This document shows, one piece after another, positions 7,024 through 12,940 of a stretch of 14,033 nucleotides of DNA. Below the pieces are notes generated by a model. That model ran no database searches. It was not told the origin of the DNA and saw only the letters and a program-made list of their open reading frames with translations. The position numbers and the translations under genes are program-made. Position 1 is the stretch's first letter. Each line of letters starts with the position of its first letter. Location: positions 1 through 14,033 of the forward strand of contig DYJV01000062.1 of NCBI GenBank assembly GCA_020722945.1. Reading direction: 5' to 3'. This DNA comes from Candidatus Methylomirabilis sp. (GTDB lineage Bacteria; DYJV01).

Positions 7024-9027
7024 CTACATCCACCCCATACTGTAATTAAAATCTGTTCCAGAGGATATTTTCCCATTTTTGAGGCTTTCATAAAGGGGTA
7101 TTAATCCACTATTATAATATTTTACATTTGAAACATCAAATAAAAATTTTGAATATCCAGATTTTTCAATATCCCTCCTCACTGATAGTAAATTAAAGTT
7201 CCTCTCATCAAAGATAGTAGTCAACTCACCCTTTGATTTTATAAAGAAATTATGTTTCTTGTCATCTGTCAACATAGCATTATTTTTAAGTTTATTAGGG
7301 ATTCTCGAAATAAGTAGAGGATAATTGGCATAAACCGTAATAATACTCCTTCCTTTGAGAATTATCTTATCAAGATTATCTTTCTCATTTTCGATATCAA
7401 TTACCCATCTTTTAAAACCAAGCTTTGCAAGAAATGAGATTGAGAGATCATTTGAAAGATGAAATCTTTCAGAAGCTATAAGGAAATTATCTTTGCTACC
7501 ATCAAAAAGGTTAATCTGACCTTTGGAATTGAGGTAAAATTTGTTAAACCCTGACTCTTTTGCACTTTTTATAAGTTTATAAAATCTCTCTGTTTCAGAG
7601 TTAAAAATAAATGGTGGAATTTCAAAAATTATATTATCTTTTAATGTAGTTAACTTTTTCTTGTTGACCCTGAGAGGTTTCTCTAAATCTGTGATTGGAA
7701 ATATCAGGTAATCTCTTGTATTATCTCTAAAAACATTAATATCTTCGATAGTTTTGAGCTTGAAGTATATCTCCTGTTTATTACTACCAGAATCTGCAAA
7801 GTCAGGAGTAGGAAAATCGCTTAAAAGAAAATTCTTTGTTTTAGGAAGAGGAAACTTATACTCCGAGTTGCTCTCTTTTTCAGATATTTTAAAAATATTA
7901 TTACCCTTCCTTACTTTGAGGCTTTTACCTATCGGGATTAAAACAGTAGAATTTTTCCTCCCGTTATGAGTAACTTTATCCTTTAAAATTATATCCTTTA
8001 CCCTTACAGATTCTCTCAACTCCTGTATCCGTAAGACATCACCCTCGTTAATATCAATATTTAGCTTTAACTTTAAAAAATCAGATGAGCTTTCAAGCAC
8101 TTTACCCACAAAGAGACCATTTCCGCCAGAAAGTTTTGGCTCTACTATATTGTCTGAGTAGAAGTAAAAACCGTTTGAGTATCTTCTTCCAAAACTTTTT
8201 TTTATCAACTCTTCAGCTTCATCTTTTAACTTTTGGTCAATAAATTTATCTTTGTAAAATTGATCTATTAAGATTCTATAAGCTTTCGTAACATTTCCCA
8301 CGTATGTTGCATTCTTCATACGACCTTCAATTTTGAATGATGTTACATTTAGCTCAAGGAGTTTTTCTATATTGCTAATCGAACATAAATCGTGTGGCGA
8401 AAAGTAATTTCCTATATCATGACCTGATAAAAAGTAGCTCCTTCTGCACGGCTGGGTGCATCTGCCTCTATTGGCACTCTGCCCACCAAGGAAAGAGCTG
8501 AAAAGACATTGCCCTGAAAATGAGTAGCAGACAGCACCATGTATGAATATCTCAGTTTCTATATCTGTTCTCTCTACGATACTTTTTATCTCTTCATACC
8601 TCAACTGTCTATCAAGAACCACTCTTTTGATATTAAATTTATTAAAAAATTGAGTATCAAGGGTATTTAGGTTGGTTGTTTGGGTGCTTGCATGTAATTT
8701 GAGATTTGGGAAAAACCTTTGAACTGCCTCAATTATCCCAAAATCTTGAAAAATAACTGCATCAATCCCAATCTTCTCAAGAAAGGCAAGATATTTAAGA
8801 AGTAAAGGCAACTCACCCTCTTTAATTATAGTATTAACAGCAATATAAAGCTTTTTACCCCTTTTTTTCAGGAAAGATAAGATTGATGGGACATCTTGAA
8901 TAGAAAAATTTACGGCAAAAGCCCTTGCACTAAACTCTTTTAGACCTATGTATACAGAATCAGCACCATTTTCAACTGCTGCATACAAAGCATCAAGACT
9001 TCCTGAAGGTGAAAGTAATTCAACTAT
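7024..9027 (-). CDS. Peptidase U32 family protein (RlhA/YdcP-like), inferred ATA start
   Basis: Long-form U32 protein, 667 aa with the proposed start. Relatives with this architecture (E. coli RlhA/YdcP about 650 aa; TrhP/YegQ shorter) hydroxylate 23S rRNA or tRNA bases, and others are called collagenase-like peptidases. The Fe-S-type cysteines are present: C167, C174, C190 and C194 in [12 protein letters not shown] and RGRCTQPC. The N-terminal TIM-barrel strands are clear ([19 protein letters not shown]). The first standard start codon, TTG at 8988, would remove [12 protein letters not shown], the conserved first strand (usual form ELLAPAGS). That peptide is encoded in frame upstream, bounded by an in-frame TGA. 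The only near-cognate start there is ATA at 9025-9027, overlapping the rho stop as ATAG, with GAGGAG 9 nt upstream. Length and cysteine pattern favour RlhA-like over TrhP-like, but the substrate is not proven. Confidence 0.9.
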
Positions 9028-10271
9028 TGGTTCATACTCCTCAAAAACTCTTCATTGGTTTTCTTCTCTGAAATTTTCTCTAAGAGAAATTCCATAGCTG
9101 AAATAGAGTCCATCTTATCAAGAACTTTTCTGAGCAACCATATTCTTGGAAGTATATTCTTATCAAGTAAAAGCTCCTCTTTCCGTGTCCCTGAAGCATT
9201 TATATTGATAGCTGGGAATATACGCTTATTTGCAAGAGCTCTGTCAAGGTGAACTTCCATATTTCCTGTCCCTTTAAACTCTTCAAATATAACATCATCC
9301 ATACGGCTGCCTGTATCAATAAGTGCTGTAGCTATAATAGTAAGACTCCCACCCTGCTCTATATTTCGGGCTGCACCAAAGAAACGTTTTGGTTTGTAAA
9401 GAGCAGTTGCATCTATACCACCTGATAAAACTTTACCACTTACAGGTGTGGTAGAGTTGTAAGCTCTCGCAAGTCTTGTAATACTATCTAATAGAATAAC
9501 AACATCTCTCTTAAATTCAACTAACCTTTTAGCTTTTTCAATGACAACCTCTGCAACTTGAATATGCCTCTCAACAGGCTCATCAAAAGTTGAGCTGACC
9601 ACTTCACCTTTTACTGAGCGGAGCATCTCAGTAACCTCCTCTGGACGCTCATCAATAAGAAGAACAATCAGATACACTTCAGGGTGATTATGTTTTATAC
9701 TGTTTGCTATCTGCTGAAGGAGAACAGTTTTCCCGGTTCTTGGAGGTGCAACTATCAAACCCCTCTGACCCTTACCAATCGGTGTAAGTATATCCATTAT
9801 CCTTGTAGAGTATGTCCGTGGGTCACCCTCCATATTTAGCTTTTCATCAGGGTGTAGGGGGGTAAGATTGTCAAATAAAATTTTTGATTTTATAACCTCA
9901 GGTTCTGATTCATTGACTGTCTCTACTTTAAGGAGAGCAAAATATTTTTCACCATCTTTTGGTGGTCTTATCTGTCCTGCAATTGTATGACCAGTTCTCA
10001 ACCCAAACCTTCTTATCTGTGACGGCGATATATAAATATCATCTGGACCAGGCTGATAATTGTAATCACTGCACCTTAAAAAGCCAAAACCATCAGGTAA
10101 AACTTCAAGAACTCCCTCTCCATATATACTCCCATTCTGCTGGGCAAAAGTTTTCAAAATGTGAAATATCAACTCCTGTTTAGTGAGCATAGCATAGTTT
10201 TCTATTTTTAAATACTCAGCAATTTCATTAAGTTCTGTCATAGATTTTAATTTTAATTCACTTAAATTCAT
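9024..10271 (-). CDS. rho: Transcription termination factor Rho
   Basis: Hexameric RNA-dependent ATPase/helicase that ends transcription at unstructured C-rich transcripts. The 415 aa contain, in order: the N-terminal helical Rho_N domain (1-45); the cold-shock-like RNA-binding domain with RNP motif GFGFLR (61-66) and the [18 protein letters not shown] block (77-94); Walker A APPRTGKT (175-182), a common variant of [18 protein letters not shown] (204-213); Walker B VVILLDS (257-263); the Q-loop [15 protein letters not shown] (281-295); and the R-loop region [18 protein letters not shown] (319-336). There is no insertion in the N-terminal region, unlike high-GC Rho proteins. The ATG is preceded by GGAGG but with an unusually long spacer (12 nt). 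A 157 nt AT-rich gap precedes it. Its stop codon overlaps the proposed U32 start. Confidence 0.98.
9037..9042 (-). promoter_or_regulatory. Shine-Dalgarno sequence (GAGGAG) deciding the ATA start of the U32 gene
   Basis: GAGGAG on the minus strand, inside the last codons of rho, 9 nt before the ATA at 9027. It also lies 10 nt before the rho stop codon, so a terminating ribosome sits over it. Spacing to the alternative TTG at 8988 would be 48 nt, too far to serve that start. Confidence 0.6.
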
Positions 10272-10428
10272 TACAATTTTTTTCCTCCAAAGATGAGATA
10301 TAGTTAAAATTATTAAAAATTTTTATTTTTGATTTTGTAATATTAAATTGAAAAAATGATCAATTTATGATTTTCAAATGAAATTGAAGTGCTTTAAAAG
10401 ATTTTTGGCAGTAGTAAATTAAAAAATT

Positions 10429-11061
10429 TTAAAAGTCAATAAGTTTTTCATATATATCTATAATATCTTCAATTTTATTTATAGAGAAATCAAATTCATC
10501 CATCTTTTTATTACCAACAAAAATAGTTTTCATATTGAATTCTTTAGCTTTATGAAGGTTTGGCACACTATCATCAATCAAAATTATATCTTCAGGTTTG
10601 AATCTGTATTTCTCAATGACTTTTTTGTAAGGGAGGGCAAAAGGCTTTGGAGTAAACTCAAAATCAACTATATCATGAATATTATCAAAATACTCATCTA
10701 CAGAGAGTAACGATAATATTTTTTTTATGTAAGGATAGTATGCATTTGAAAATATTACATTAGTAGAAGAAGCCTTCTCAAAAAAATCTCCAAGAATTTG
10801 ATTCGGAACAATAAAATCTTCCAAAGGTATATCGTGAACAAACTCAAGATAATCAATAGGATCAACATTGTGGTGCTTCATTAGACCATTTAAAGTGGTC
10901 CCATACTCATAAAAATATCTAACTCTCATCTGATTAACATCTTGAGAGTTGATAGAGAGACTCTCTGTCATGTATTGGTTGATTTTGTTGTTGATAAGAT
11001 TAAACATACCAGTATCTTCAGAGTAAAGGGTATTATCAACATCAAAAAGGAGAAGTTTTAT
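10429..11061 (-). CDS. HAD-superfamily hydrolase, pyrimidine 5'-nucleotidase-like (SDT1 type), inferred ATA start
   Basis: 210 aa with the proposed start. It has all four HAD motifs: motif I DVDNT (7-11, nucleophile D7), motif II Ser in VIFSNAY (residue 105), motif III Lys in TPKPFALPYKK (139) and motif IV IDDS (DD 163-164). DNTLYSEDTGMFNLI followed by an all-helical cap resembles the pyrimidine 5'-nucleotidase branch of the superfamily, which dephosphorylates nucleoside monophosphates. The first ATG (11007) would delete motif I and leave an inactive protein. Reading upstream in frame, the codons between an in-frame TAA and motif I include no ATG, GTG, TTG or CTG; the only near-cognate start is ATA (11059-11061), with GAGG 7 nt upstream. 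The ATA is 1 nt after the mnmG stop, so initiation looks coupled. Substrate is inferred from family resemblance only. Confidence 0.88.
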   Translation of the reverse strand: MKLLLFDVDNTLYSEDTGMFNLINNKINQYMTESLSINSQDVNQMRVRYFYEYGTTLNGLMKHHNVDPIDYLEFVHDIPLEDFIVPNQILGDFFEKASSTNVIFSNAYYPYIKKILSLLSVDEYFDNIHDIVDFEFTPKPFALPYKKVIEKYRFKPEDIILIDDSVPNLHKAKEFNMKTIFVGNKKMDEFDFSINKIEDIIDIYEKLIDF

Positions 11062-11062
11062 T

Positions 11063-12940
11063 TTAGTTCCTCTTTTTTATATGATTCCATTTTTTAAGGT
11101 AAATAGCTATTATATTTACAGCAGCAGGAGTAACCCCTTCTATTCTGGAGGCTTGGCCTAATGTATCTGGTCTAACCAAAGACAATTTCTCTTTTATCTC
11201 TGAAGACAAGCTTTCAACTGATGTATAATCAAAATCATAAGGAATCTTTTTCTCTTCAAGCTGTTTAAATTTGTTGATAAGCTCACTCTGTCTCTCTATG
11301 TAGCCATCATATTTTACCTGAATTTCTGCCTGAGTATCAACATAATAATTTGTAGGTTTAATCTCACTTGTAAGATTAAAAATATCTTTTATATTTATTT
11401 CACTCCTTTTAAGTAGATTATAAGCAGAGGAAGACTCTTTGAAATCTATATTTTTTATACTTAAATACTCTTGATTTTTATCTGTCTTGAATATCTTTGT
11501 TACCTTCAATTTATCAATAAGCTCATATGTTTTGGCCCTTTTAAACTCAACTGCCTCAAACTGCTCTTTCCCTACCAAGCCCATATTGTAAGCTATCTTG
11601 GTCAACCTTAAATCTGCATTATCCTCTCTTAATACAAGCCTATGTTCAGCTCTTGAAGTAAACATTCTATACTGCTCTTTTGTCCCTTTGGTCACAAGAT
11701 CATCTACCATAACACCCATATAGGCTTGAGAACGATCAAGTATAAATGGCTCCCTTTTCAAAAGTGCAGATCCAGCATTGATACCTGCCCACAATCCTTG
11801 TGCCGCAGCTTCTTCATAACCAGATGTTCCATTTATCTGACCTGCAAGATATAAACCTGAGATAAGCTTAGTTTCGAGAGTTAACTTTAGTTGGGTAGGA
11901 TCAATATAATCGTATTCAATTGCGTATGCAGGACGCATTATTTCAGCATTTTCAAGACCTTTAACCTTTTTGAATATTTTATCCTGATATTCAAAAGGGA
12001 AACTATTCCCAAGACCTTTTGCATAAATCTCTTCTGTATCCCGACCTTCAGGTTCAAGGGTAACCTGATGCCGCTCTTTATCTTGAAACCTCATAACCTT
12101 ATCTTCAAGAGAGGGGCAGTATCTTGCACTCCTCCCCTTGATATCTCCACTGTAAAGTGGGGACATTGAAATATTAGCTCTCATAAAAGTATGGATATCT
12201 TGATTAGTATAAGTAACAAAACAACTCATCTGTTCAGGTTTAAATGTGGTTATATCTGTTTTGCAGGATAATGGGATAACAAAAGAGTCCCCCTTCTGCT
12301 CCTCAAGTGATGAAAAATCTATGCTACTCTTTCTTATCCTTGGTGGAGTCCCAGTCTTCATCCTTCCAAGTATAAAACCTATATCTTTAAGATTTTTGGC
12401 AAGTGAAACAGAAGCAAACTCCCCTGCTCTACCTGCGGGGATTTTGGTTTTACCTATATGTATAAGTCCATTTAGGAATGTCCCAGTTGTAATGATTACT
12501 TTGTGAGCATAATACTCTGCTCCAACTTCATCAACAACACCTTTGACAGTAAAATTTTCAATCAGCAGCCTCTCTACCATAGCCTGTCTAATTTTTATAC
12601 CCCTTACACTTTCAAGAAAATGCTTGACTGTAAGTCTATAACCCTGCTTATCACATTGAACTCTGCTCCCTCGAACAGCCGGTCCTTTAGATGTATTTAA
12701 TATCTTAAACTGAATACCTGTTTTATCTGCTGCCCATGCCATTATTCCACCAAGAGCATCTATCTCCTTGACAAGATGTCCCTTCCCAAGACCACCAATA
12801 GCAGGATTACACGACATTTGAGCAATTGTATCAAGATTGATGTTAAAGAGCATAACTGATAAACCTAATTTTGCACATGCATAGCTTGCTTCTATCCCAG
12901 CATGTCCTCCACCAACAACTATAATATCGAAACTATTCAA
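11063..12940 (-). CDS. mnmG: tRNA uridine 34 carboxymethylaminomethyl-modifying enzyme MnmG (GidA)
   Basis: FAD- and NADH-dependent enzyme. With MnmE it installs the cmnm5/nm5 group on wobble U34 of tRNAs reading two-codon boxes. At 625 aa it is full length. Seen motifs: dinucleotide-binding GGGHAGIEA (10-18), [13 protein letters not shown] (43-55), [11 protein letters not shown] (85-95), [10 protein letters not shown] (192-201), the catalytic Cys in RYCPSLEDK (C275), and [16 protein letters not shown] (367-382). The C-terminal helical MnmE/tRNA-binding domain ends with [11 protein letters not shown]. The start is a TTG, supported by GAGGG 7 nt upstream and by a conserved N-terminus (FDIIVVGGG); there is no in-frame ATG nearby. 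It is the first gene after a 600 nt gap and leads straight into the HAD gene. mnmE is not in the window. Confidence 0.97.
11069..11072 (-). promoter_or_regulatory. Shine-Dalgarno sequence (GAGG) deciding the ATA start of the HAD gene
   Basis: GAGG (GAGGA extended) on the minus strand in the last codons of mnmG, 7 nt upstream of ATA at 11061. The mnmG TAA lies between the two, giving GAGG-N3-TAA-N1-ATA. No alternative start codon lies within reach of this site in the frame that encodes the HAD catalytic motif. Confidence 0.6.

Follow-up and report, generated by a model that had tools for sequence, protein, structure and literature searches.

The window analysed here, a 14,033-nucleotide stretch from contig DYJV01000062.1 of a Candidatus Methylomirabilis sp. 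assembly (a draft of 184 contigs, with contamination estimated at 5.8%), carries mnmG, a HAD-family gene, rho and a U32-family gene one behind the other on the minus strand (7024–12940; Table 1). The U32 protein matches the NCBIfam profiles TrhP and UbiU, in both cases below their cut-offs. Wobble uridines of tRNA are, in known systems, the target of MnmG as well as of TrhP-like members of the U32 family. A fragment of a Ser/Thr-rich, surface-like protein lies at the contig edge (13543–14031, minus strand), and no Rfam elements were found in the window.

Table 1. Features of the mnmG–HAD–rho–U32 segment, in window coordinates
Feature	Position	Strand	Evidence
U32 peptidase-family protein (TrhP/UbiU-like), 667 aa from ATA	7024..9027	-	Pfam PF01136 2.4e-75
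rho stop TAG, 2 nt common to U32 ATA (ATAG)	9024..9026	-	sequence
ATA start codon of U32-family gene	9025..9027	-	sequence; G001 ATG alignment; NCBIfam coverage
AGGAG Shine-Dalgarno inside rho, 9-nt spacer to U32 ATA	9037..9041	-	sequence
rho, gene upstream of U32	9024..10271	-	TIGR00767 4.8e-210
HAD-family pyrimidine 5'-nucleotidase-like protein, 210 aa from ATA	10429..11061	-	TIGR01993 3.2e-47, above cut-off
ATA start codon of HAD gene	11059..11061	-	sequence; TIGR01993; G001 homologue ATG one codon on
GAGGA Shine-Dalgarno inside mnmG, 6-nt spacer to HAD ATA	11068..11072	-	sequence
mnmG (TTG start), stop TAA 11065-11063, gene upstream of HAD	11063..12940	-	TIGR00136 3.5e-252

A sequence-only reading of this DNA had placed two ATA starts at the stop codons of the preceding genes, each served by a Shine-Dalgarno (SD) sequence in the last codons of that gene, and the positions of both starts and of both SD sequences (AGGAG in rho, GAGGA in mnmG) are confirmed here. 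On the minus strand, rho ends in AGG AGT ATG AAC CAA TAG, and the U32 frame runs ATA GTT GAA TTA CTT TCA CCT from 9027; the start and stop codons share two nucleotides, a spacing scored as a −4 overlap in our junction statistics. At the other junction, mnmG ends in AGG AAC TAA, followed by a single A and then by the HAD frame from 11061, ATA AAA CTT CTC CTT TTT GAT GTT GAT. Standard start codons appear in the two frames only 13–18 codons after the ATA, the first being TTG 8988 in U32, with no ATG, GTG or TTG before it, and ATG 11007 in HAD, again with none before it. The NCBIfam matches open at residue 2–3 of both ATA-started proteins (UbiU, 2–191 on 1–194, and TrhP, 3–200 on 6–204, for U32; TIGR01993, 3–182 on 2–183, for HAD), and the nucleophile motif DxD of the HAD protein (DVDNTLY) is encoded before ATG 11007; a start upstream of the standard codons is therefore needed. 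That translation instead begins at TTG 8988 and ATG 11007, as the first standard codons, to give shorter proteins is highly improbable, since the HAD protein would then be without its catalytic motif and the U32 protein without its conserved N-terminus. Gene finders limited to ATG, GTG and TTG truncate such proteins, here with the loss of that motif. Both genes thus combine a family-conserved N-terminus at a non-ATG/GTG/TTG codon, away from any in-frame standard start, with an SD at a working distance and with the geometry of coupling, a start at or within a few nucleotides of an upstream stop on the same strand.

The only order-level relative, G001, is a metagenome-assembled genome of another family (JALVYZ010000089.1), in which the HAD–rho–U32 order is kept and mnmG does not adjoin. 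Its U32 homologue (57% identity) reads ATG GTA GAA TTA exactly opposite ATA GTT GAA TTA, and its HAD homologue has an ATG that aligns one codon further on; profiles and G001 homologues together place both N-termini at the ATA or within a codon or two. Homologues of U32 outside the source genome, comprising G001 and 50 distant loci, have a standard start near the aligned N-terminus in 51 of 51 cases (ATG in 46, GTG in 5), so the method does not itself generate non-standard starts. A coding-signal ranking of the sequence above the first standard start, blind to both SD and codon, put U32 and HAD fifth and seventh of 190 and infC first; other high entries include prfB and a TGA-containing peroxiredoxin. 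ATG at both genes in close relatives, together with ATG in a resequenced genome, had been named beforehand as grounds for refuting the proposed coupling rule; G001, although of another family, does have ATG in both, which is half of that test. The difference implies that the ATA is either recent or was lost in G001. Misreading of ATG as ATA in the consensus or assembly would fit both the fragmented draft and the ATG of G001, yet it would take two independent errors in one window and further ones at infC and at the locus L112 (below), and an AUA or AUU start is expected for infC from other bacteria; we regard such errors as very unlikely. Frameshifting at the upstream stop could in principle yield fused proteins with no new initiation, as a programmed shift does occur in this genome, in prfB, and the frames are +1 at mnmG and thrS. 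However, no slippery site was seen at the junctions, the SD sequences stand at initiation spacing and the G001 homologues start with their own ATG, which makes this reading extremely improbable. On the sequence evidence, the U32 and HAD genes do appear to start at AUA beside the stop codon of the preceding gene.

An in-script model of coding signal and SD was used to look for near-cognate starts in some 1.45 Mb of this genome (2.51 Mb in total), where it called about 1,200 genes. Its start statistics were trained on ATG, GTG and TTG only, because free expectation-maximization over 64 start codons drifted to AAA/TTT; candidate lists at low threshold consist mostly of internal SD-like matches. 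When the U32 protein served as sole query, an initial scan of genomes had returned no match. At least seven near-cognate starts were found, which looks more frequent than the four profiled in S. aureus, by methods that differ. The ATA of infC comes one base past the stop of thrS, with AGGAGGTG, and this start is backed by TIGR00168 and PF05198 coverage; many other lineages sampled start infC at ATA, ATT or ATC with a strong SD. Conserved N-termini likewise place an ATT start in ftsH (L117:13552-15384, minus strand), an ATC start in the adenine deaminase gene ade and a CTG start in a MoaD-like gene (L141:5827-6108, minus strand), where the CTG and the stop of the preceding gene overlap as CTGA. 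The ftsH start reads AGGAGG AGTCCA ATT AAC here and AGGAGG AAAGCT ATT AAC in G001 (L189), both with a 6-nt spacer, and no standard start is found at the ftsH N-terminus in either genome. This AUU, kept across two families on the gene of a protease that is normally important, is in sequence terms the clearest sign of selection in our analysis. Two further starts were placed by position: an ATA after AAGGAG at L112 8925(+), in a gene for a secreted protein whose signal peptide also supports the placement, and an ATT in an RND-type transporter gene on L049. Of these, the L112 ATA is uncoupled, the 400 nt before it containing no gene in the same direction, and the L049 start is uncoupled too; some other near-cognate starts lie 54–226 nt from any stop.

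Several candidates were set aside. An ATA at L032 18166(-) was left ambiguous, an in-frame GTG lying two codons upstream. The prfB entry (L099 18781-19824, minus strand) is the programmed RF2 frameshift (AAGGAG...CTTTGA) and served as a positive control of the scan. The peroxiredoxin on L012 proved to have an in-frame TGA (ADFTFV*PTELAAV; L012:13957-14415, minus strand, and upstream; also L031 892-986, minus strand); it is likely a selenocysteine-containing PrxU, and a tRNA-Sec is present in the genome. Separately, a gene for a cyclic-nucleotide-binding/CBS-type protein is broken by an in-frame TGA (LPDI*IYRLIGEDP; L097 5724-7277, plus strand), through a nonsense change, an error or recoding.

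The sequence-only reading had further proposed a possible rule, by which this lineage would accept AUA as a start only at sites where the codon is offered to a ribosome that has just terminated. Three of the four unambiguous ATA starts do lie within −8 to +5 nt of an upstream stop (infC at +1, U32 at the −4 overlap, HAD at +1), as about 20% of all genes do (p=0.027, with both discovery cases counted), and so do 4/8 of the near-cognate starts (p=0.056). Without the two discovery cases, 2/6 near-cognate starts are coupled against the 20% background (p=0.34), and one of these two is thrS–infC, an old, ancestral junction. An automatic count of ATA against other codons at SD positions, a noisy test, gave a weak enrichment (7/39 against 8.4% expected, p=0.04). 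Given these numbers and the uncoupled L112 ATA, the rule is unsupported; the ATT of ftsH, the ATC of ade and the ATT of the RND-type transporter, all uncoupled, also speak against it, and we consider it quite unlikely. What survives of the proposal is coupling itself, which the geometry of the rho–U32 and mnmG–HAD junctions leaves plausible at both. At the latter, folding predicts a hairpin in which the SD of HAD (GAGGA) pairs with UCCUUUU in the first codons of that gene (z −2.0), and in this model the hairpin would be opened by the ribosome finishing mnmG; no comparable SD-sequestering fold was predicted at the U32 and infC start sites.

A look at IF3 and the initiator tRNA for unusual residues had been suggested, and both molecules turned out to be ordinary on inspection. 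IF3 keeps the fidelity residues Y70, Y75, R99, K110, R131, R133, R147 and R168, with N at position 116 in a variable column, and the initiator tRNA has the C1-A72 mismatch and the GGG/CCC stem. A code change to AUA=Met was also ruled out: 14 of the 20 ATA codons of rho align with Ile in G001, so AUA is still Ile. Neither relaxed machinery nor a new code is thus required. IF3 disfavours weak third-position pairs (PMC10158994), and its overproduction lowers translational coupling in E. coli (reviewed in PMC12548453).

We therefore favour, as the probable explanation of these sequence patterns, SD-assisted near-cognate initiation at AUA by the ordinary initiator tRNA, disfavoured by IF3 and aided by coupling at the two junctions, with no rule confining AUA to coupled sites. 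In this scheme, U32 and HAD would be initiated at AUA by ordinary fMet-tRNA(CAU); IF3 would disfavour the third-position mismatch and keep initiation weak (the S. aureus precedents reach roughly one tenth of the AUG level), and the SD at its working distance would rescue it. Both starts may also be fed by ribosomes that terminate on rho or mnmG right there; protein output would then be low, sensitive to IF3 and linked to the gene upstream. The ATA codons probably arose from ATG by single G-to-A changes in an AT-rich genome, a polarity that one relative leaves unproven. Both starts would belong to a wider near-cognate set in the genome, led by infC. Since AUA and codons like it also serve as starts outside such junctions in the same genome, the case is a modest new instance of a known way to hold protein output low, not a new rule. 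It is a tentative and unlikely extension that near-cognate starts are several times as frequent in the lineage as in described bacteria and form an IF3-sensitive regulon including infC and the conserved AUU of ftsH, with coupled AUA junctions holding the expression of some genes to a small, fixed proportion of that of the gene upstream. If near-cognate starts are common in this little-known lineage, a whole set of genes could have its expression level governed by the amount of IF3.

Among known systems, infC, which encodes IF3, starts at AUU, AUA or AUC and is autoregulated through IF3; such a near-cognate start is known from E. coli. The starts described here resemble it in combining an AUH codon with an SD, so that IF3 discrimination is expected, and the genome's own infC has its ATA at the thrS stop. 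U32 and HAD, however, are not initiation factors, so the purpose of self-feedback does not follow for them. In S. aureus, infC, ccpN and citZ start at AUA and cvfC1 at AUU, and the tested near-cognate sites had, in one medium, about 10% of the activity of AUG (PMC13009471); for that species, AUA initiation of infC and of further genes is already in the literature. The ccpN, citZ and cvfC1 cases are alike in that AUA or AUU codons, all preceded by an SD, start ordinary genes in a low-GC bacterium, but those starts were measured and infC, cvfC1 and ccpN have an extended SD (PMC13009471), whereas those here have an SD of 4–5 nt, lie at upstream stops and are known from sequence. Termination-reinitiation at ATGA- and TAATG-type junctions (PMC6728339, PMC12548453) shares with the present junctions a start within a few nucleotides of the upstream stop and an SD in the upstream gene; it differs in that AUA replaces AUG here (ATAG against ATGA) and that the coupling here is putative.
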